Virus record (IMG/VR): IMGVR_UViG_3300030451_003542
Location: 1-24,974 of that record
DNA from: a virus
Reading direction: 5' to 3' (one strand)
Length of the DNA: 24,974 nt
The position numbers and the translations under genes were made by a program. How positions within the stretch are numbered: the first letter of the stretch is position 1; each line of letters opens with the position of its first letter. Below the pieces are notes generated by a model. That model had not been told where the DNA came from. It searched no databases and saw only the letters and a program-made list of their open reading frames with translations. Below, one piece after another: positions 8,499 to 16,828 of this stretch.

Positions 8499-8700
8499 TA
8501 ATGCTGTAGATTTCCAAAATTCCGTTTCTCGTGAGATTGCAAAATTTCATTTAAAGCGTGTAGGAAAAACCTCCACGGACAATGAAATTGAAGAATGGTT
8601 ACACACAGCAAATATGTGTCTTTCAAGAGACGTGTTGGAAACCATGGTCAATGAGTACTGGGAATGGTATATGGGTGGAAAGGATTATAAATATATGTAA
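8488..8700 (+). CDS. small hypothetical protein
   Basis: A 70-residue protein, mostly helical, with no recognised domain. ATGs at 8482 and 8488 are both in frame. The second is preferred because GAAAGAG (8474-8480) is then 7 bases upstream. It overlaps the metallopeptidase gene by 11 bases and its C-terminal codons contain a late-promoter-like TATAAATA (8686-8693). It is the last gene of the early-type block. Confidence 0.6.
   Translation: MNYDNAVDFQNSVSREIAKFHLKRVGKTSTDNEIEEWLHTANMCLSRDVLETMVNEYWEWYMGGKDYKYM
8686..8693 (+). promoter_or_regulatory. T4-type late promoter box
   Basis: A perfect TATAAATA, the late -10 element recognised in T4 by gp55 with the gp45 clamp. It lies 28 bases before the ATG at 8722, at the boundary where the gene content changes from replication to late-type proteins. 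The predicted start is near 8700. Confidence 0.55.
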
Positions 8701-8721: not shown

Positions 8722-9519
8722 ATGGTTGCAAAAACTGTAAATGAATTAATCGAAGATTCATATAATTCAGCAACAAAATCATTTTCCAAAAAATATCTCA
8801 TTGAGTCAGGAAGAACATCTGAAAGACAGGAAAATGGGTTTGTTGCTGCCATTACAGATGCAGTAATGATGAATGGCGATAAACCAATCACACTAAAAAC
8901 AAAAGATGCGACTATAAACGGCGTCATTAAGGCTGAAAAATATACAGGTAGACAAGCTTCCGGATCTGAGCCATATACTGATGTCCAGATATTTACCAGT
9001 CGAGGTATACTAAACATATCGATGAAAGGACCTACAGCACCATCGCTTGCAGGTGGTGGTCTCCGTGGCATAGAGGAAATTATACCTGGACTCGGAGCAA
9101 GGTTTTTTCGAGCTGCTTACGACAATCACATTAAAAAGAACAAACTAAAACCTGGTGAAAAAGTTCCAGATACCTTTGCGAAATTAAACGATAAAGATAA
9201 AAAATTATTGGTGATCGGTAATAAGGCCATGGGAGGCCCAATAGACTATATGTACATTGGACCCATGGAAGTTTCAGCAGATTATAAACAATCTACGTTA
9301 ACCGTAAACGGTAAGTTGATTGATTCAAAAACGTATTCAGATTCAAAGGATCTTTTTTTCCGTCTTCGAGCAAGAAGGGTAGACCAAACATTTGATCCAG
9401 AAGCATTAGATAGAAAAGGTATCCCAAAAATATATAGTAAATCACCATCAAGAGGTGACAGTGCTGGGCGATTGGTTGTGACAGATAAACCTGTTCGCGG
9501 CAAAGTTATTACTTTCTAG
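8722..9519 (+). CDS. putative PD-(D/E)xK-like protein, late-type block
   Basis: A 265-residue protein of unknown function. AAAAGGA lies 7 bases before the ATG and a late promoter box lies upstream. Residues E37 (in ERQENGFVAAITDAV), D87 (in PYTDVQIF) and S100-M101-K102 (NISMKG) are spaced like the E...D...(E/S)xK core of the restriction-endonuclease fold. A conserved-looking APSLAGGGLRGIEE loop follows. The neighbour at 9530 has the same arrangement (E101, D236, SLK 252-254), so the two may be distant relatives. The C-terminal half is beta-rich and unassigned. I recall related unannotated proteins in marine phages but no function. If the fold reading is right this is a DNA- or RNA-processing protein; a purely structural role remains possible. 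Confidence 0.7.
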   Translation: MVAKTVNELIEDSYNSATKSFSKKYLIESGRTSERQENGFVAAITDAVMMNGDKPITLKTKDATINGVIKAEKYTGRQASGSEPYTDVQIFTSRGILNISMKGPTAPSLAGGGLRGIEEIIPGLGARFFRAAYDNHIKKNKLKPGEKVPDTFAKLNDKDKKLLVIGNKAMGGPIDYMYIGPMEVSADYKQSTLTVNGKLIDSKTYSDSKDLFFRLRARRVDQTFDPEALDRKGIPKIYSKSPSRGDSAGRLVVTDKPVRGKVITF

Positions 9520-9529
9520 GATAAAAAAA

Positions 9530-10813
9530 ATGAAAACATTTAAAACATATTTAGAAGAAGCAGCAGAAGATGTTGAAAACACTCTGTCTTCTTTAAAAAA
9601 GTTAAAGTATGATGCCGCAGTAAAAAAAGGAAATAATATAACTGTAAAAACTTCTGATGATCGCGTAGAAGTACTTCAAAAAATTGCAAAGCAACTGAAA
9701 GGTGAATACCAAGATGCAAGTCAGAAGGGTGTAACTTCCTCTGCTGGTCGTACTGTTTTACCAAATGGTGTAAAAATTGAAGCGAAGGATAGTGGTGAAA
9801 ATAAATTGAGAAATAAAGGTGACATTGCAGAAGGTTTACTTGGTCTTGCATTATACACAAAGTTCCAAAACAGAGTTGGTGATGACATCAAAGATATATC
9901 AGCTGCTGATTTTACAGCATCACTCAATAATCTTCGAAAGGAAAAAACTCAGGCAGTTAAAAAGGGAGCAGTGTTATATCAAAAAGTAAATATTAAAGAT
10001 TTACGAAAGAATCAAGATACAGTAAATCTGACAATTATGTTACCACAACCATCGTATGAAGATCTATTAGATAAGTCCAAAGATAAGTTGATTATGAAAT
10101 TAGCTAGATCTGCAATCAACTATGCTAATTCCAGAAATGTAACAAGATATGCAAAATTCTTATATGTAAATAATTCTAAAAATGTTATCGATGTAAAATC
10201 AGAAGGAACACTTGATCAAAGCGGAACAAAAGTCGATCTAAAAGTCGTCGTAGACGGTCGTCTCTTGAAGAACTTGAACATATCATTGAAGTCAGGAACG
10301 AGTACAAAACAGTTTGGTCAGGTATTTGGTTACACAGGAAAACATCATACTGCTCTGTGGAAAAACTTAGGTCTTAATTATAGCAGAAAACAAAAAGAAC
10401 ATGATAATATGCTTTTAGATGATGATGGTATTGTTAAGGCTTTTCATTATTCGTACAAATGGGCTGCCAATGAGATCAATAAAAGACTAAAGAATGATAA
10501 ACAAGAATTTGCAATGCTAAAAACCATTGCAAAGATGGTTAACTTTTATGCTACTCGAAATGAAAAAAATGTAAAACTGGTTCACTTTAAAGACTCTGGC
10601 GATTATAGTGTTTTATCATTCGATAAGCTTGAAGATAAGTTAAAGAAAATAAAATTAGAAGCAGTATATCGAGATCTTACTCTACCAACTATAGATATTC
10701 AAGATTCAAAAACAAAAAAGAAACTCATTTCAATTAAAGGCAAAAGAGAACTTCGAGCTTATCGTAATTTGATTCAAAAAGAAAAACTACTCGAAGAGCT
10801 TTTGGAAGTCTGA
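9530..10813 (+). CDS. putative PD-(D/E)xK nuclease with T4-like capsid-targeting N-terminus
   Basis: A 427-residue lysine-rich protein. Its first residues, MKTFKTYLEEA, align position for position with the T4 internal-protein capsid-targeting peptide (MKTYQEFIAEA), which the prohead protease gp21 removes after E10. Here L8-E9-E10|A11 satisfies the LxE|A rule. The body shows E101 in GDIAEGLLGLALYTKF, D236 in KVDLKVVVDG and S252-L253-K254 in LNISLKSG, consistent with a PD-(D/E)xK nuclease core, followed by TKQFGQVFGY. I infer a nuclease packaged inside the capsid and possibly injected with the DNA. The gene is strongly AT-rich, follows the 8722 gene by 10 bases, and overlaps the next gene by TGATG. 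Confidence 0.75.
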   Translation: MKTFKTYLEEAAEDVENTLSSLKKLKYDAAVKKGNNITVKTSDDRVEVLQKIAKQLKGEYQDASQKGVTSSAGRTVLPNGVKIEAKDSGENKLRNKGDIAEGLLGLALYTKFQNRVGDDIKDISAADFTASLNNLRKEKTQAVKKGAVLYQKVNIKDLRKNQDTVNLTIMLPQPSYEDLLDKSKDKLIMKLARSAINYANSRNVTRYAKFLYVNNSKNVIDVKSEGTLDQSGTKVDLKVVVDGRLLKNLNISLKSGTSTKQFGQVFGYTGKHHTALWKNLGLNYSRKQKEHDNMLLDDDGIVKAFHYSYKWAANEINKRLKNDKQEFAMLKTIAKMVNFYATRNEKNVKLVHFKDSGDYSVLSFDKLEDKLKKIKLEAVYRDLTLPTIDIQDSKTKKKLISIKGKRELRAYRNLIQKEKLLEELLEV

Positions 10814-12042
10814 TGATCAAATTCAAAACATTCATCGTCGAAGAAAAGAACACTCATATGACTCACATCGAGGAGCTGATGTTCCTTGGAGGTGTCGATG
10901 GTACTCGTCAAGCAATTAACTTCCTTCGAGATCTACGTGATATGCTGAAGGGTAACGCATCGTCTGCTGTCGACATCACTGTGAAGTGGGATGGAGCACC
11001 TGCTGTATTTGCCGGAGTCGATCCTGAAGATAAAAAGTTCTTCGTTGCAAAGAAGGGTCTATTCGCTAAAACTCCTAAGATGTATAAGTCGAATGCTGAT
11101 ATCGACAAAGAACTCAAAGGTGACCTCGCCAAGAAATTCAAAGTAGCACTTGCTGAATTTTCTAAGCTTGGAATTAAATCTGGTGTATACCAGGGCGATA
11201 TGATGTTTACCAAGGGTGATGTAAAAACAGAAACCATAGACGGTCAGAAATACTACACGTTTCAGCCAAACACAATCGTGTATGCGGTACCTGTAAACAC
11301 ACCACTCGGAAAGAAAATTGCAAGGGCGAAGATAGGTGTTGTATGGCACACAACATATACTGGCAGTACGATTCAAAATATGAGTGCATCATTCGGTAAA
11401 CAGATTGCCAGCAAGTTTAGAGCACCCTCTACTATCTGGATGGACGATGCCACGTATCGAGATGTGTCAGGAAAGGCACTATTCAGTAAAAAAGAGTCTG
11501 CTGCATTTGATAAACTCTTGAGCAAAGCAGGCAAGTTATTTCGTACAGTCGACGGTGATGCGTTTAGAATGATTGTGAGTGACGATGAGCTGCGTCAGAA
11601 GACGATGACTTTTGTCAATACATACATCCGCAGAGGATCGGACTTTCCTGCATCTGGTACGATGGCTACGGGACTTGTCCAGTACCTTAATGATTGGTAT
11701 CAGAAAGAGATTGACAAAAAGAAAACCGAGAAGGCAAAAGAGCAATGGAAGCAGCGCCGTGATAATCTCGTTCAAAAAGTAGTTATGAATAAGAGTCAAC
11801 TCATTGCTATGTTTGATCTCATGAAGGTTTTGGTAGATGCAAAGGGTATGGTCATAGCACAGTTTGATAAGACACAAGAGCTTGATACTGTATTGAGAAC
11901 AGCAAAGGGCTTTCAAGTAACACGCCAAGAGGGTTTTGTGGCGATTGACAAATTGAAGGGTGGTGCTGTTAAATTAGTAGACCGTTTAGAGTTTAGTAAG
12001 GCTAATTTCTCTCCGGAGATCATCAAGGGTTGGCAAAAATAA
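10813..12042 (+). CDS. ligase-like nucleotidyltransferase family protein (KxDG motif)
   Basis: A 409-residue protein. VKWDGAPAVFAG places K58 in a K-x-D-G motif, the adenylated-lysine motif I of ATP-dependent DNA and RNA ligases and capping enzymes. KSGVYQGDMMF (124-132) resembles motif III (F/YxGE, here GD). KKFFVAKKGLFAK lies between them. I do not see convincing motifs IV and V, so activity is uncertain. I think the family is catalogued as DUF6267, from memory. The N-terminus MIKFKTFIVEEK resembles the capsid-targeting peptide of T4 internal proteins, with F4, F7, I8 and E10 aligned, though the residue after E10 is E rather than A, G or S. The gene is coupled to the preceding nuclease-like gene through TGATG. 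A packaged nucleic-acid or cofactor-modifying enzyme is my inference. Confidence 0.75.
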   Translation: MIKFKTFIVEEKNTHMTHIEELMFLGGVDGTRQAINFLRDLRDMLKGNASSAVDITVKWDGAPAVFAGVDPEDKKFFVAKKGLFAKTPKMYKSNADIDKELKGDLAKKFKVALAEFSKLGIKSGVYQGDMMFTKGDVKTETIDGQKYYTFQPNTIVYAVPVNTPLGKKIARAKIGVVWHTTYTGSTIQNMSASFGKQIASKFRAPSTIWMDDATYRDVSGKALFSKKESAAFDKLLSKAGKLFRTVDGDAFRMIVSDDELRQKTMTFVNTYIRRGSDFPASGTMATGLVQYLNDWYQKEIDKKKTEKAKEQWKQRRDNLVQKVVMNKSQLIAMFDLMKVLVDAKGMVIAQFDKTQELDTVLRTAKGFQVTRQEGFVAIDKLKGGAVKLVDRLEFSKANFSPEIIKGWQK

Positions 12043-12048
12043 ATTTTA

Positions 12049-12056
12049 TATAAATA
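12049..12056 (+). promoter_or_regulatory. T4-type late promoter box before the giant multidomain gene
   Basis: A perfect TATAAATA in the 64-base gap between genes, 50 bases before the ATG at 12107. The sequence continues as TAAAAAC, so the longer core ATAAATAATAAAA is shared with the boxes at 15754 and 20606. The predicted start is close to 12063, where a perfect hairpin begins. Confidence 0.7.
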
Positions 12057-12062
12057 ATAAAA

Positions 12063-12082
12063 ACTAACTGCTCCCAGTTAGT
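12063..12082 (+). promoter_or_regulatory. perfect 8-bp hairpin at the predicted 5' end of the late transcript
   Basis: ACTAACTG (12063-12070) and CAGTTAGT (12075-12082) form a perfect stem with a 4-base loop, CTCC. No T-run follows, so it is unlikely to be a terminator. It sits immediately downstream of a late box and 24 bases before the ATG, whose Shine-Dalgarno GAGGAG is left unpaired. A 5' hairpin that protects the mRNA from decay fits best. Confidence 0.6.
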
Positions 12083-12106
12083 CCACGGAAAACCTGAGGA
12101 GATAAA

Positions 12107-15100
12107 ATGTCAAAGATAGTCTTTACGTGGGGACGCATGAATCCCCCCACGGTCGGTCACCAAAAATTAGTAGACAAGGTCAAGTCCGAAGCTAAAAAAC
12201 TCGGTGCGATGGCTCATGTCTACATCTCGCACTCACAGGATAGTAAAAAGAATCCTCTCTCGTATGCGGACAAATTTGCTATTGCCCGAAAAGCTTTTGG
12301 TCCGATTGTCAAAAAATCAGAATCGAAGACCATAATTCAAGTCATGAAAGAGCTTGAAAAGATGGGACACACCGATGTGGTGCTTGTCGTCGGATCAGAT
12401 CGTGTAAGAGAATTTAAAACATTCCTGCCAAAATATAATGGTAAAGACTACAACTTCAAATCAATTAAGGTAGTGTCTGCTGGAGCAAGAGACCCTGATG
12501 CCGACGGTGTATCTGGTATGTCTGCATCTAAGATGCGCGCAGCTGCGCAGGCTGGCGATTATGCTTCATTTAAAAAAGGAACTCCAAAATCCATGTCGGA
12601 AAAAGAGAAAAAAGATATGTATGATAAAATTCGTTCAGTCATGGAAAAAGAAACAAACGAGTCCATCGAATGGGATGACAGTGACTTCGAGTTTACTGAT
12701 GATGAACTTGATGCATTTATTGAAATGACTGACTTGGAAGCTCTCGAGGAAGTAGTAGAGATTGACGAGGAGTATGGTGAATATCTCGAATTGCTTGGAG
12801 AAGAACGCAAACCTCTTACAGTACAGCAGAGAATGGCAATCGGCCGACGTATGAAGAGACTTGCTCCCCGTATCTCTCGCATGCGTAAAATACGAATGAA
12901 GAGAATGGCTGATAGACCGAGACTAGAGAAAAGAGCTCGTAAAGCTGCAATTAAGTTATTAAGAAAAAGATTTGCTGGTAAACAAGGTGAAAATTATGCA
13001 TCGTTGACACCTGCCGCAAAGATGCAAGTGGACAGGGTTATCCAGAAAAAAATGGCGGCGGTCGGCAGGATCTCCAAACGTCTTTTACCAAAAGTACGGA
13101 AGGCAGAGATGGAACGATTGAAGAATTTAAGAAAAGGTAAGTCTGAACCCACCAAAAAAGCGGTTCGTGAAGAATTCATCTGGGAAGAGGAAGACGAAAA
13201 AACAAACCAAAAGCTGATTACAATTTTAAGACAAGCCTTTACTGATCCTAAAGAAAGAAATCTTGTCATTCGAGCTTTAAAGGGTGGCGAAAGGTCACTA
13301 AAAAATCCAAAACTTCGGCCATTTGTGCTGAAACTATTAACACGACTGCTTGATGCCACACAAGATGATCCCAGCATGCTAGCGAAGATGAGAGACAAGC
13401 TACGAAGAATGAGTCAGGCTGACAATTTAAAGGAAAGAGAAGATCCTGATATCGGTCACCGTAAGGGTAGCCAACCAGCGCAGTATCATACCGGATTGAG
13501 TAAGTCTACTAAAAAAAGGCGTGATGCTCATTTTAGAAAATATGCTGAGAAACCTGGTGATAAAAATAAGAAAGACTCAGATGCGAACTACAAACCTGCT
13601 CCAGGCGATGCCAGGGCAAAAACAAAGCCGTCAATTCACACAAAGAAATACAAGCAAATGTATGGCGAAGATGATCCATGTTGGGATACTCACAAACAAG
13701 TGGGTATGAAAAAGAAAGGAAATCGTATGGTCCCGAATTGTGTACCAAAAGAAGATTTAAATGCATCATTCGAGAAATTTCTCGAAGAAGAATATATTGA
13801 AGAAAAGATTGCGGGTCTTGTCAAAAAATCAGAGAAGTCAGGCATCCCATACGGCATCCTCAAACAGGTGTATAACCGAGGCATGGCTGCGTGGAAGTCG
13901 GGCCACAGACCGGGTGCAACACCACAGCAGTGGGCGTTTGCTCGAGTTAACTCTTTCATCACCAAAGGATCTGGTACATGGGGTAAGGCCGATAAGGATC
14001 TTGCCGCAAAGGTACGCGGATCGAAAGCTCGTAAGGAATCACTTGACAAAGAGGATGAGCCAAAGGTTAAAGAAATCATCAAGAAGTTGAAGGGTGCAAG
14101 TAAGGCTCATGCTGGTCAAGCGAAAGACTTAGAAAAGGCCGTAAAAGAAGATGCGGTTAAAGATGCAAAAGATGACATTAAACGAGAAAAAGAAATTGAT
14201 AAGCGTAAGCATGATGCGATGCTTGATAGAGCTCGGTTACAGAAAGCGAAGATGAAAAACCGAATGACGGAAGCGGAGCATAGCGACGAAATCGAAGTTG
14301 ACGGTTATCAGACAAAGAACTTTCATATGTGTGGCTCGGCTCAAAAGGTCATGAAGAAACTTGCAGGCAAGGAGGGAGCCAAGGAACTCACTCAGATGCA
14401 AGACAAGTTTTACGGTCTTGAAAAGCAGATTATGAACAATGGATCCGCAGATAAAAAACAAAAAGCAACGGCACGTATGATGCATGACCGAATCATGGCA
14501 AAGGCAAAGCAGGTCGGACTCGACGATGAGATTGGCGGATACATGAAGATGCACATTGATTCTATCGAGAAGGGCAAACCGAAGTTAGGGTTTGGTCGTA
14601 CAGATATTAAGGAATCGATTGACGAAAAGTTTGAATCGCTTTTTCTTGAAGAGCCAAGAGTGCCAAGAAAGCCGGGGCAGCCGGCTGGCTCTGATAAACA
14701 CTCCGATCTTTACACAGACGAAAATCCAAAAGATACAATTCACGGACTGAAATTTGCTACTGTGAAGGATGCGGAAGCAAGTGTAAAAAAGATAAAATCG
14801 TCAGGACGTAAACACGCACACAAAATTCAAGCAGCGATTGCTATGGAACAGAGAGCAAGAGTTGCCGGTAAGAAAAGTGCGGCTGCTGTCTATCGTGCAT
14901 ACATAAATGCAATGAAAAAGAAAACGAAACAGATGCGGAAAGAAGAGTATGGTGCCGGCGAGGAGGGCACAGATAAACTTGTGAAGAAATACAAAAAAGA
15001 TACTCCCAATGAAGATTGCACATGCTTCGATCATGTTATCTCCGAGGCTGAGTATAAAGGGCGTAAGGTCACTCTCAACGATCCGATACGGTCAAACGAC

Positions 15101-15313
15101 GGTAAGAAAAAATTCTATGTATATGTGAAAAATGAAAAGGGTAATATTGTAAAGGTCGGATTCGGAGATCCAAATATGGAGATCAAACGAGACGATCCAG
15201 GCCGCCGTAAAAACTTTAGGGCACGTCACAACTGTGATAATCCAGGACCAAAATGGAAAGCAAGGTACTGGAGTTGTTATCAGTGGCGAGCCGGTGCGAA
15301 GGTTGATAACTGA
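12107..15313 (+). CDS. giant multidomain protein with N-terminal nucleotidylyltransferase; possible polyprotein
   Basis: A 1068-residue protein. Residues 1-170 form a cytidylyltransferase-like Rossmann domain: GRMNPPTVGH (T15-x-G17-H18, the HxGH-type motif), VVLVVGSDRV, and GMSASKMR (S139-R144), equivalent to the ISxxxxR motif. Acidic linkers then alternate with very basic modules: a K/R-rich module (about 235-350), a STKKRRDAHFRKYAEKPGD module (about 455-520), a CWDTHKQVGMKKKGNRMVPN zinc-finger-sized piece (about 527-545), a GIPYGILKQVYNRGM...GHRPGATPQQW module (579-640), a CGSAQKVMKKLAG helical module (about 740-830), a KPGQPAGSDKHSDLYTDENP module (about 855-950) and a C-terminal RARHNCDNPGPKWKARYW module. 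Linkers carry CTS-like or LxE-like sites: FEKFLEEE (555-562), FESLFLEEP (842-850), ISEA (978-981), MTEA (720-723). Several modules recur in other marine phage proteins, from memory. GAGGAG precedes the ATG. Confidence 0.85.
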   Translation: MSKIVFTWGRMNPPTVGHQKLVDKVKSEAKKLGAMAHVYISHSQDSKKNPLSYADKFAIARKAFGPIVKKSESKTIIQVMKELEKMGHTDVVLVVGSDRVREFKTFLPKYNGKDYNFKSIKVVSAGARDPDADGVSGMSASKMRAAAQAGDYASFKKGTPKSMSEKEKKDMYDKIRSVMEKETNESIEWDDSDFEFTDDELDAFIEMTDLEALEEVVEIDEEYGEYLELLGEERKPLTVQQRMAIGRRMKRLAPRISRMRKIRMKRMADRPRLEKRARKAAIKLLRKRFAGKQGENYASLTPAAKMQVDRVIQKKMAAVGRISKRLLPKVRKAEMERLKNLRKGKSEPTKKAVREEFIWEEEDEKTNQKLITILRQAFTDPKERNLVIRALKGGERSLKNPKLRPFVLKLLTRLLDATQDDPSMLAKMRDKLRRMSQADNLKEREDPDIGHRKGSQPAQYHTGLSKSTKKRRDAHFRKYAEKPGDKNKKDSDANYKPAPGDARAKTKPSIHTKKYKQMYGEDDPCWDTHKQVGMKKKGNRMVPNCVPKEDLNASFEKFLEEEYIEEKIAGLVKKSEKSGIPYGILKQVYNRGMAAWKSGHRPGATPQQWAFARVNSFITKGSGTWGKADKDLAAKVRGSKARKESLDKEDEPKVKEIIKKLKGASKAHAGQAKDLEKAVKEDAVKDAKDDIKREKEIDKRKHDAMLDRARLQKAKMKNRMTEAEHSDEIEVDGYQTKNFHMCGSAQKVMKKLAGKEGAKELTQMQDKFYGLEKQIMNNGSADKKQKATARMMHDRIMAKAKQVGLDDEIGGYMKMHIDSIEKGKPKLGFGRTDIKESIDEKFESLFLEEPRVPRKPGQPAGSDKHSDLYTDENPKDTIHGLKFATVKDAEASVKKIKSSGRKHAHKIQAAIAMEQRARVAGKKSAAAVYRAYINAMKKKTKQMRKEEYGAGEEGTDKLVKKYKKDTPNEDCTCFDHVISEAEYKGRKVTLNDPIRSNDGKKKFYVYVKNEKGNIVKVGFGDPNMEIKRDDPGRRKNFRARHNCDNPGPKWKARYWSCYQWRAGAKVDN

Positions 15314-15762
15314 TGTTTGAGTATAAGTGTACCATACTTAGAGTTGTGGATGGCGATACAGTCGATGTTGATATCGATTTGGGGTTTGGTGTATGGATGC
15401 GTAAACAGCGCATTCGTCTCTATGGTATTGATACACCAGAGTCACGTACACGTGATAAAGAGGAAAAGAAGTTTGGGCTACTTGCGAAGCAATATGTTGA
15501 AGGATTTCTTAAAAAAGGATCTACCGCCACTTTGGTCACCGAAAAAGACGGTAAAGGAAAGTTTGGCAGGATTCTTGGCAAGTTTCAGGTCTTTGATGCA
15601 AAGACAGACAGAGCAACTTTCCTACATGAATTAATGATTCGAGATCACATGGCTGTCGAGTACATGGGTCAGTCAAAGGAAGATATCGCCGAAGAACATC
15701 TAATGAACAGGCGTCGGATAAAAGAGAGTGGATGTTATAACGAAATGTTAAATTATAAATAA
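15313..15762 (+). CDS. staphylococcal-nuclease homologue (thermonuclease)
   Basis: A calcium-dependent endonuclease of DNA and RNA of the SNase family, 149 residues, about the size of one SNase domain with no signal peptide. VVDGDTVDVDIDLGFG is the Ca-binding first strand region. R35 and E43 in RIRLYGIDTPES match the catalytic R35 and E43 of S. aureus nuclease. R86 in GKFGRILGKF matches R87. The C-terminal half is the usual helical cap. All catalytic residues are present, so activity is likely. Its start overlaps the stop of the giant gene by one base, so it is co-translated with a late-type gene rather than with the early genes. With no secretion signal it should act in the cytoplasm or in the virion. 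Degradation of host nucleic acid or processing of phage DNA are both possible. Confidence 0.9.
   Translation: MFEYKCTILRVVDGDTVDVDIDLGFGVWMRKQRIRLYGIDTPESRTRDKEEKKFGLLAKQYVEGFLKKGSTATLVTEKDGKGKFGRILGKFQVFDAKTDRATFLHELMIRDHMAVEYMGQSKEDIAEEHLMNRRRIKESGCYNEMLNYK
15754..15761 (+). promoter_or_regulatory. T4-type late promoter box before the EF-hand modular gene
   Basis: A perfect TATAAATA overlapping the stop codon of the SNase gene, 31 bases before the ATG at 15793. The downstream bases ATAAAAAAC repeat the extended core seen at 12049. The predicted start is near 15768, and a GAGGACAAG ribosome-binding region follows. Confidence 0.7.
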
Positions 15763-15792
15763 TAAAAAACAAACTCAAACGAGGACAAGAAC

Positions 15793-16401
15793 ATGGATAA
15801 AATTAATCCCTTCCGGAACCCTGAAAATGATAGCTTGGTCGATACAATTCGTGCCGTTCTTTCAGGTAAACCTATCGAGGAAAAAAAGCATAAAATGGAT
15901 CCTGTAGATCCTGAAGCTGCAAAGAAAAAGTTTAAGGACCGTAAGGATAAAGACATTGACAACGATGGTGATGTCGATAGCTCAGACGAATATCTTCATA
16001 AACGGCGTAAAGCTATTGCTACAAAAGAGGCTGTAGAGGACAATCCCGCAAACTATCAGCACCTCTGCGCTAAGAATGTTGTACATGAAAAATGGGGTAC
16101 AGGTAATTGTATTCCTACAATGCATGCTGATCCCGATGCGGAAGGAAACGTTGCTTGGTACGATGTAATGTTCGAGCACGGTATTGAGGCAAAAGTTTCA
16201 ATAGATGAACTGAAAGTTACCAAGGCCGAAGAGCATATGCATGCTTCAGTCGACAAAAAGAAAAAGATGAAAAAAGAAATGGCTCATGGTGACAAGAAAA
16301 AGATGAAAAAAGAAATGGCTCATGGTGACAAGAAGAAGATGAAAAAAGATGAAATTGATCTAAAACCATCGACAAATAATGATCGTAGCACAGCAGAGTA
16401 A
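15793..16401 (+). CDS. modular late protein with EF-hand-like calcium loop and lysine-rich repeats
   Basis: A 202-residue charged protein. The N-terminus (NPFRNPENDSLVDTIRAVL) is a helical lead often seen in marine phage virion-associated proteins. A calcium-loop motif DIDNDGDVDSSD (54-65) has D at positions 1, 3, 5, 9 and 12 and G at 6, as in dockerin or EF-hand loops. Residues about 85-140 form a compact module with CAKNVVHEKWGTGN, WYDVMFEHGIEAKVSIDELKV, recurring in other phage proteins from memory. The tail carries three tandem copies of a DKKKMKKEMAHG unit, which is basic and probably binds nucleic acid or membrane surfaces. The gene has its own late box. The same kind of modules occurs in the giant 12107 protein, suggesting domain shuffling among late proteins. 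Function unknown. Confidence 0.8.
   Translation: MDKINPFRNPENDSLVDTIRAVLSGKPIEEKKHKMDPVDPEAAKKKFKDRKDKDIDNDGDVDSSDEYLHKRRKAIATKEAVEDNPANYQHLCAKNVVHEKWGTGNCIPTMHADPDAEGNVAWYDVMFEHGIEAKVSIDELKVTKAEEHMHASVDKKKKMKKEMAHGDKKKMKKEMAHGDKKKMKKDEIDLKPSTNNDRSTAE
16252..16347 (+). repeat. in-frame tandem repeat encoding a lysine-rich 12-residue unit
   Basis: Three consecutive copies of a 36-39-base unit encode DKKKMKKEMAHG. The first copy has one extra lysine codon, the second is complete, and the third is truncated after KK. Near-identity at the DNA level indicates recent slippage-type expansion, so the copy number may vary between related phages. Confidence 0.8.
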
Positions 16402-16409
16402 AAAGTTCA

Positions 16410-16586
16410 ATGATGTCCTTTAAAGAATATATGCTTGAAGAAGCAATGTCAGATGCTCAAATGAAAAAGCGTGAGGAGATAGTTAAGTCCCTGAAAAAGA
16501 AAATGGGTGACTTTAAAAAAAGATATGGTGATCGAGCAAAAGATGTGATGTATGCAACTGCTACTAAAATGGCGATGAAAACATGA
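16410..16586 (+). CDS. small modular protein with capsid-targeting-like N-terminus
   Basis: A 58-residue protein (57 if the second ATG at 16413 is used). The N-terminus SFKEYMLEEAMSD resembles the T4 internal-protein capsid-targeting peptide and ends in L-E-E|A, a gp21-type cleavage site. After cleavage about 46 residues would remain, composed of a basic helical module with KKREEIVKSLKKKMGDFKKR and YGDRAKDVMYATATKMAMK. I recall that this YGD...VMYATATK module occurs in many marine phage proteins, usually fused to others; here it is almost free-standing. The stop overlaps the next ATG (ATGA). Clean spacing and the recognisable module make it a convincing gene despite its size. It may be a small internal capsid protein. 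Confidence 0.75.
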   Translation: MMSFKEYMLEEAMSDAQMKKREEIVKSLKKKMGDFKKRYGDRAKDVMYATATKMAMKT

Positions 16587-16828
16587 GTTATGCAAGAGTT
16601 ATAAAAACACTACACCGAATTGAAGAAGGTGGTCATACCGATGTAGCCTCTATGAAAAATAAAGTAGAGATGGCGAGTAAGGCTATAGCGATTATGAAAA
16701 CCGAGCTAGACAAGCTAGGAGATGATGATTCATTACCTAGTTGGTGGACAAATAAAGTGGCTGTTGCCGTCAGTAATCTAGATAGCATGGCTGATTACCT
16801 AGACGTCAAAGTCGAGGATAATAAATAA
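16583..16828 (+). CDS. small modular protein, candidate internal virion protein
   Basis: An 81-residue protein coupled to the previous gene by ATGA. The N-terminus (MSYARVIKTLHRIEEGGHTD) is helical and ends in I-E-E|G, which fits the gp21-type rule (L/I)xE|(A/G/S). The rest is a helical module GGHTDVASMKNKVEMAS...LPSWWTNKVAVAVSNLDSM that I recall as a recurring piece of marine phage proteins; the SWWTNK motif is its hallmark. Function is unknown. Position next to the 16410 gene, with the same architecture of short leader plus one module, suggests that both are processed during head maturation. Confidence 0.75.
   Translation: MSYARVIKTLHRIEEGGHTDVASMKNKVEMASKAIAIMKTELDKLGDDDSLPSWWTNKVAVAVSNLDSMADYLDVKVEDNK
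16820..16827 (+). promoter_or_regulatory. late promoter box (AATAAATA) before the structural genes
   Basis: AATAAATA fits the NATAAATA form reported for late promoters of marine T4-like phages. It overlaps the stop of the preceding gene and lies 59 bases before the ATG at 16887. It lacks the first T of the T4 consensus, so confidence is moderate. Confidence 0.45.

Follow-up and report, generated by a model that had tools for sequence, protein, structure and literature searches.

Leaders on proteins of the gp41–gp61 region

Does the region between gp41 and gp61 in IMG/VR virus record IMGVR_UViG_3300030451_003542 encode enzymes that are loaded into the phage head by a short T4-type leader? An initial annotation of this DNA had proposed as much for positions 8722–16828 of the window (the whole stretch analysed, 24,974 bases; all window features below lie on the + strand), naming leaders on the proteins that start at 9530, 10813, 16410 and 16583. 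On the best reading of our analysis, the gp41–gp61 region is a cargo island of a T4-like, Kyanoviridae-like marine phage in which T4-type capsid targeting is used for enzymes, a reading to which we assign a probability of roughly 0.78. That the leader is of the T4 capsid-targeting type is strongly supported by sequence statistics, by the transfer of a leader profile to T4, where ipIII and ipII took ranks 1 and 2, and by the virion lists of related phages.

Translation placed the motif at three starts, namely MKTFKTYLEEA (9530), MIKFKTFIVEE (10813) and MMSFKEYMLEEA (16410), each with F at position 4, F or Y at 7, I, L or M at 8 and E at 10. According to the accessible text of PMC9026906, residues 4 and 7 of the T4 IPIII leader serve targeting and residues 8 and 10 processing, and gp21 cuts after L/I-x-E. 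Both ipII and ipIII start MKTYQEFIAEA in the T4 record, so the 9530 leader aligns with that of T4 position by position, as originally claimed. The leader of 9530 (MKTFKTYLEE, 9530..9559; also in loci L002 and L081) is predicted to be cut after E10 and before A11, and that of 16410 (16410..16442) after E10 or E11; the leader of 10813 (MIKFKTFIVE, 10813..10842) was placed from the N-termini of its homologues and the profile described below. The residue after the leader glutamate is A, G or S in 9530 and 16410 and K in 10813 (E-K), so the proposal that A, G or S follows the cleavage site held for the first two and failed for the third.

N-termini were scored with a profile built from 41 unique 10-mers of DUF6267 homologues (the family of the 10813 product) on viral contigs. 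Briefly, the 10-mers were positioned by their match to the window protein without using the motif, and 4 of 80 loci (L002, L080, L082 and L096) were omitted from training. Position 4 was F, L or Y in all 41, position 7 F or Y in 35, position 8 I, L or V in 40 and position 10 E in 40. Across 33 window proteins chosen by hand from the list of open reading frames (ORFs), the highest scores were those of 10813 (26.3, which is circular because the training set contains the identical 10-mer via the identical contig L019), 9530 (18.2) and 16410 (10.8); all others scored 0.6 or less, and only 2 of 7110 internal positions reached 9. The leaders of 9530, 10813 and 16410 are real, that is, more than chance. 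The leader ending in IEE|G that had been proposed for the 81-aa island protein at 16583..16828 was rejected, with a profile score of -11.3 and a homologue in L024 that starts MSYARVIRSLKEDGHDD and lacks IEE|G.

The profile carried over to isolates. Among 334 T4 ORFs, ipIII and ipII took the first two ranks and ipI ranked 8; among 219 annotated N-termini of S-CREM2, the top four (gp154, gp13, gp14 and gp6) were all in the 52-protein virion list, as far as that list could be accessed; and among 322 ORFs of Phage C48C1 the top five (CDS0096, 0081, 0088, 0087 and 0090) all lay at 57.3–68.4 kb, near its DUF6267 gene. Taken together, the detected S-CREM2 proteins had higher profile ranks than the rest with only P = 0.036; the P of 3.2e-4 applies to 18 of the 52, a subset picked as non-tail after the list was known. 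With a motif fixed on the T4 positions, S-CREM2 proteins with the strict leader numbered 4 detected in the virion and 1 undetected (others, 48 and 166; P = 0.012), and those with the loose leader 5 and 4 (others, 47 and 163; P = 0.037). At the internal rate, 0.17 strict and 0.75 loose leaders would be expected in this phage, cf. 5 and 9 found.

The leader was also found on unrelated bodies. The degenerate pattern MK[ST]FKx[YF]LEEA occurred in 41 IMG/VR stretches and a permuted control pattern in none; this result and the four detected strict leaders of S-CREM2 led us to reject chance or start-codon bias as its source. The 39 ORFs long enough to cluster fell into nine body groups with no BLAST match between groups at 1e-3, among them DUF6321, a below-cut-off GNAT-like match and the 9530 family. 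A near-T4 pattern, MK[ST]YQEFIxEA, occurred in 37 stretches, of which 17 were one CWPGYKKKG-module family on contigs with metagenome-type names (leader MKTYQEFI[ST]EA or MKSYQEFISEA), and 20 formed six groups, with two singletons resembling T4 ipII and ipIII by eye. Mobility was visible in the 9530 family itself, where L024, L027, L029 and L083 matched residues 1–86 at 42.5% and the remainder not at all. Two loci carried leaders in tandem: the DUF6267 gene of L088 (4007-5275) has seemingly two leader-like stretches (MLNFNTFIKEIDQGVILAEGK), and L109 (10980-11580, minus strand) has two successive leader genes, a 183-aa ORF with MKTFKEFLEEA and then an ORF starting MKTFKEFINEA.

Leader proteins in the virions of related phages

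An NMNAT/cytidylyltransferase has been reported in the virions of four relatives, as the island protein in S-SM1 (as T4-GC190; PMC3037559, in the text available), S-SCSM1 (PMC9602691, likewise) and S-SZBM1 (PMC9146016, Table 1), and in S-CREM2 (PMC10665884, Table 3 as accessible). All four proteins start with the leader: MKKFSAFLNEA in S-SM1, MKSFLQFLKEA in S-SCSM1, MRFRQFIIEA in S-SZBM1 and MKNFSSFLTEA in S-CREM2. In the accessible part of the S-CREM2 paper (PMC10665884) six virion proteins are named as non-structural. Besides two endolysins, these are a SAM hydrolase, Cas9, a kinase and a cytidylyltransferase, all four of which carry the motif. In S-SZBM1, gp140, which has the leader, is in the virion list, and its DUF6267 neighbour gp141, which lacks it, is absent from the list. 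In relatives the leader is associated with presence in virions; cutting, injection, an effector role and function in this phage are inferred.

Annotated head proteases are present in C48C1, S-CREM2, S-SZBM1 and S-SCSM1, and the major head proteins of these phages, compared by eye, show FLTE|T, LLTE|A, ILTE|A and FLAE|A where T4 gp23 has FLTE|A.

Three further observations concern virion proteins. The Cas9-like gp12 of S-CREM2 (L015 7704-10313) has the motif FASFMAE from residue 19 and not at its very start, which suggests either a mis-set start codon or a leader acting from inside. In the virion-flagged SSCSM1_93 (L173 46627-46836) a leader-like TFKEFLE stands not at the N-terminus but at the C-terminus. 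Two other virion proteins, gp160 of S-CREM2 (L014 28343-29236) and SSCSM1_97 of S-SCSM1 (L173 48122-48307), hold a near copy of a segment (GFTG...EGP.AGYDPL) located after the site where the major head protein of the same phage is probably processed, and they may be mimics of the capsid N-arm.

A fusion with internal leaders

The 1068-aa product of 12107..15313 has no N-terminal leader of its own. It is a fusion of cargo modules and a candidate polyprotein, with internal leader-like copies that the initial annotation overlooked. Its NMNAT/cytidyltransferase-like domain (residues 3–190, 12113..12676; PF01467, CTP_transf_like, 26.2 bits cf. a cut-off of 21) is related to the virion proteins annotated NMNAT or cytidyltransferase. 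There follow YLELLGE (residues 226–232, 12782..12802), a loose match only, before a basic module (residues 237–344, 12815..13138); the strict copy FEKFLEE (residues 555–561, 13769..13789) before a DUF5824 module found by Pfam (residues 574–631, 13826..13999); FESLFLE (residues 842–848, 14630..14650), again a loose match only; and a C-terminal module (residues 957–1060, 14975..15286). In C48C1 these modules are separate leader genes, CDS0088 (MLSFKQFVSEV; basic, also stand-alone with leader in L119), CDS0090 (MITFKKYLEEK; DUF5824) and CDS0096 (MKKFKQYIDEG; C-terminal module), all of which are merged in the 12107 product.

Relatives of the fusion (33 proteins, 31,529 residues) contained 33 strict internal motifs and no reversed motif. 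After removal of close relatives, 24 fusions (22,280 residues) remained, of which 14 contained a total of 24 motifs, cf. 20 motifs in the 245 other long proteins from the same loci (99,057 residues; P = 8e-8, a value that is too small because thinning leaves homologous sites); none of 1000 shuffles reached 24. Some of these motifs (YFEFFRE, YFEFFNE) may sit within a domain. The fusions of L022 (12799-16596) and L036 (5834-9748) have a further internal leader before a Zeta_toxin/AAA_33 P-loop kinase.

The register of internal and N-terminal leaders was compared for six hand-chosen stand-alone proteins and eight fusions, including that of the window, from the start points of BLAST alignments. 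F4 of CDS0088 fell on an internal F in L021, L022, L024 and L033, F4 of CDS0090 on F555 of the window fusion, and Y4 of the L098 protein (MKTYQEFISEA) on an internal F in L022, L030 and L036. The register was thus exact in three module types; some fusions gave none, and the CDS0096 junction had no internal leader. A broader comparison of stand-alone proteins with fusions was weak: in three of the 44 entries listed, the point where the leader would end had a fusion motif no more than 30 residues away (L098 and L134 exact, L063 18 residues off).

We propose that the 12107 product may be a polyprotein of cargo modules, which the prohead protease would separate. A Pfam scan found no peptidase domain in it at E up to 0.1, a search that a diverged domain could escape. 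That the internal leaders are used and cut is a tentative suggestion, somewhat short of even odds; the wider idea that marine T4-like phages may carry capsid-cargo polyproteins, drawn into the prohead core by internal leaders and separated by the maturation protease into preloaded effectors, is held with the same reserve.

Candidate cargo enzymes

The 10813 product (10813..12042) is a 409-aa DUF6267 protein resembling the ligase superfamily, with KWDGAP at residues 58–63. In an alignment of 32 family members, KWDGAP, QGD, EG.VA and K.V.R were invariant, including K58, W59, D60, G61, E373, G374, V376, A377, K387 and V389. We take KxDG to be the nucleotidyl-lysine motif and EG.VA and K.V to be ligase motifs IV and V. 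The structural model had a pLDDT of 78.7 (27 for the first ten residues), and in a VIA-align comparison RNA/DNA ligase entries took ranks 1–46 among the best 50 matches; the top match was T4 RNA ligase 2 (2hvr_B; rmsd 4.2 over 170 aligned residues) with a Z of 6.9, below 8. A Foldseek search with the model gave no match at E ≤ 0.001, a profile search of PDB sequences gave no relevant match, and DUF6267 was not mentioned in the literature searched. We read 10813 as a probable ligase-superfamily protein, on its motifs and, less firmly, on the fold comparison.

The 427-aa product of 9530..10813 (phrog_3560 family) is a cargo candidate and perhaps a nuclease: a possible PD-(D/E)XK motif was noted by eye in its sequence, and its model (pLDDT 36.9) was unusable. 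Of the nuclease-like and ligase-like enzymes that had been proposed as head cargo, the ligase-like one is supported by the motifs of 10813; the case for the nuclease-like one is weaker, as 9530 offers this by-eye PD-(D/E)XK assignment and the SNase-family protein at 15313 lacks a leader. A precedent for varied cargo functions comes from the available text of PMC12373910, which reports that T4 Ip1-3, which have only the leader in common, block different GmrSD restriction enzymes. On entry, the enzymes considered here might restore NAD+ or seal broken nucleic acids.

In the mechanism that we propose, the leader (F/Y/L at 4, F/Y at 7, I/L/M at 8, E at 10) would bind the prohead core during assembly, and a gp21-type prohead protease would remove it after E10 (or E11), leaving the bodies in the head, from where they could pass into the host along with the DNA. 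As cargo we envisage the ligase-superfamily protein 10813, the NMNAT/cytidyltransferase domain of 12107 and perhaps a nuclease, 9530. The 12107 fusion would enter the core via its internal leaders, and the same protease would cut it into modules.

Setting of the island

The window comes from a T4-like marine phage, with gp43, UvsX and gp41 on its left side and gp61 primase and ThyX on its right. Genes were named from recognised homology and matches to annotated relatives; UvsX was RecA-like in the Pfam scan, and an NCBIfam search gave no match above its cut-offs. The nearest isolate found was C48C1, a member of the Kyanoviridae; the 10813 product and the DUF6267 protein of C48C1 share 48% identity. 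In the window, as in S-SZBM1, S-SM1 and S-SCSM1, the island is flanked by gp41 (and MazG) on one side and gp61 on the other; in C48C1 it lies at ~57–68 kb, apart from both genes. At the UvsX position, the recombinases of L020, L021, L022, L029, L033 and L070 are 74–93% identical to that of the window, and those of L025, L030, L031 and L084 31–32%. Within the phage collection, the window had near DNA matches in only two patches, with 85–87% identity (the range covers both) to Synechococcus and Methylophilales phages, an 83-base patch in a CWxxxK module (13673-13755) and a 69-base patch in a DxDxDGD module (15910-15978).

Other island genes include 8722..9519, which encodes a 265-aa protein with an N-terminal extension of ~28 residues that is missing in five homologues and is not a strict leader (score 0.6); the SNase-family gene (15313..15762; Pfam), whose start overlaps the stop of 12107; and 15793..16401, encoding a 202-aa protein with the DxDxDGD module. 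Neither of the last two products has a leader by translation or profile score. The 16410 gene (16410..16586) encodes a 58-aa protein that is also found as a module inside the L072 fusion.

The region had also been described as a late-promoter block. TATAAATA, a possible late promoter, occurs at 8686..8693, 12049..12056 and 15754..15761, ending 28, 50 and 31 bases upstream of the 8722, 12107 and 15793 starts, which fits that description. As evidence this is weak and no proof: the window has four copies cf. 1.75 expected, at least four were reached in 9 of 100 shuffles, two of the upstream copies sit within the end of the preceding ORF, and the fourth copy is inside gp43.

Alternative explanations

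Several observations weigh against an island of leader-targeted cargo. The virion evidence comes from related phages alone and not from this one, gp21 was not found in the window fragment, and the authors of the proteomes allow for carry-over from the lysate in the accessible text of PMC9602691 and PMC10665884. In the available part of PMC3037559 the cytidylyltransferase was undetected in the S-PM2 virion, and in that of PMC9964418 no NMNAT was named among 14 virion proteins of S-CREM1, yet NMNAT is in the map legend. The two best-scoring of 459 S-SZBM1 proteins (SSZBM1_192 and _191) are missing from the 30-protein virion list (PMC9146016); the best of 459 ranked in S-SCSM1 (SSCSM1_30) is not virion-flagged (the second, the NMNAT SSCSM1_91, is); and four loose-motif S-CREM2 proteins went undetected. 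In the virion data accessible for S-SCSM1, 7 of the 10 genes 89–98 are flagged and only gene 91 has a strict N-terminal leader (SSCSM1_89, 90, 92, 93, 95 and 97 have none); the island is therefore virion-rich beyond the leader. Conservation among homologues, the absence of which was to count against the proposal, gave a mixed picture: almost every DUF6267 homologue on viral contigs keeps the leader, those of S-SZBM1 and S-SM1 lack it, and it was gained or lost in the 9530 family (L031, L032 and L140 lack it) and in the 8722 family (five loci lack it). The window fusion contains a single strict copy, and at several of its junctions no copy is present.

The six S-SCSM1 proteins without a strict leader would suit an explanation in which the leader proteins belong to the prohead core or scaffold, like T4 gp22, gp67 and gp68, and are mostly degraded or serve as structural filler instead of being delivered as effectors. 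Several leader modules (C48C1 CDS0088 and 16410 of the window) are short, charged and lysine-rich. In T4, cutting of core proteins takes place at several L/I-x-E sites (PMC9026906, in the accessible text), and the internal copies would suit this too. We nevertheless consider this unlikely, as leader bodies include enzymes (the ligase-like 10813, the NMNAT-like proteins and the SAM hydrolase, kinase and Cas9 of S-CREM2) and body content varies from phage to phage. Less probable still is a tag for another role, such as a tail part, the portal or a late-transcription complex, with the proteins reaching virion samples by another route. Virion lists give no location within the particle, and leader targeting in Kyanoviridae is read from sequence; yet a profile made from DUF6267 proteins alone retrieved T4 ipIII and ipII, whose packaging by the leader was experimentally shown (PMC9026906, in the part available), and near-identical leader letters occur on environmental genes. 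The least probable explanation, which the data largely refute, is that the leaders reflect chance or N-terminal composition bias and the listed enzymes are lysate contaminants. The contamination that the authors allow for in the text available and motif-test P values of only 0.012 and 0.037 would favour it. Against these stand the permuted pattern (0 vs 41), the blind recovery of the T4 ip genes and the S-CREM2 list, where, in the part accessible, the non-structural, non-endolysin virion proteins are the motif bearers and polymerase, reductase and other enzymes are unlisted.

Capsid targeting of enzymes by the T4-type leader leaves a separate question about 12107, for which there is an about even chance that the internal copies are left over from gene fusion or form helical linkers and that the fusion, if packaged at all, enters the head whole and stays unprocessed. 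Ten of the 24 de-duplicated fusions had no strict motif, the CDS0096 junction lacked a copy, two of the three internal copies in the window are loose matches only, and T4 leaders known so far are N-terminal. Conversely, internal copies are about fivefold more frequent than in the other long proteins encoded at these loci and have retained the E and the spacing of hydrophobic residues, and T4 Alt is processed at its C-terminus too (PMC9026906, in the text available).

Significance and comparison with known systems

The accessible text of cyanophage proteome papers reports NMNAT, SAM hydrolase, kinase and Cas9 in virions and leaves their route of entry unexplained. A leader that predicts virion enzymes would supply a rule for recognising, from sequence, what marine T4-like phages carry in their capsids, and its four key positions, together with the range of natural bodies, give packaging experiments a set to begin with. 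A general remark that the leader may serve T4-like phages for various proteins is already in print (PMC9026906, in the part accessible); in the literature searched we found no description of the leader in cyanophages or of a cargo polyprotein processed by a maturation protease. If the internal copies work, these phages would possess such a polyprotein, and head maturation would double as polyprotein processing for an enzyme set delivered at the first moment of infection. This set would consist of the NMNAT-like protein, the separately tagged ligase-like protein and, in relatives, a zeta-type kinase, and it might, for instance, replenish NAD+ and repair nucleic acids that host defences have broken by sealing them.

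Polyvalent proteins (PMC5512222, in the text available) likewise have several domains per chain and are thought to be delivered with DNA and split. For 12107, whose delivery is putative, the domains are NMNAT-like and DUF5824, with a Zeta_toxin-family kinase added in L022 and L036, and, unlike in polyvalent proteins with an embedded metallopeptidase, cutting is proposed to be done by the prohead protease, at leader copies. Ejection proteins of SPN3US and phiKZ (PMC5694885, in the part available) also have N-terminal propeptides cut after short xxE motifs, some at several sites; the five SPN3US propeptides named there exceed 100 residues, whereas the leaders described here have ~10, the size of those in T4. 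The NMNAT-like domain of the window is homologous to the cyanophage virion NMNAT (T4-GC190) and lies in the same gp41–gp61 island; unlike the NMNAT proteins of S-SM1, S-SCSM1, S-SZBM1 and S-CREM2, it lacks an N-terminal leader and is continuous with further modules that carry internal leaders. With T4 RNA ligase 2 and ATP-dependent RNA/DNA ligases, 10813 shares KWDG, EG.VA, K.V and ligase entries in the fold comparison; it differs in having no sequence match in the PDB and a Z below 8, and its ligase activity is predicted. The closest parallel is with the leader of T4 IPI, IPII and IPIII, which has ~10 N-terminal residues, the same four key positions and unrelated bodies, and whose form MKTYQEFI[ST]EA we found on an environmental contig family. 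T4 belongs to the Tevenvirinae and the phages here are Kyanoviridae-like; unlike IPI–IPIII, their cargo includes enzyme-like proteins and DUF modules, with copies of the leader inside a fusion.

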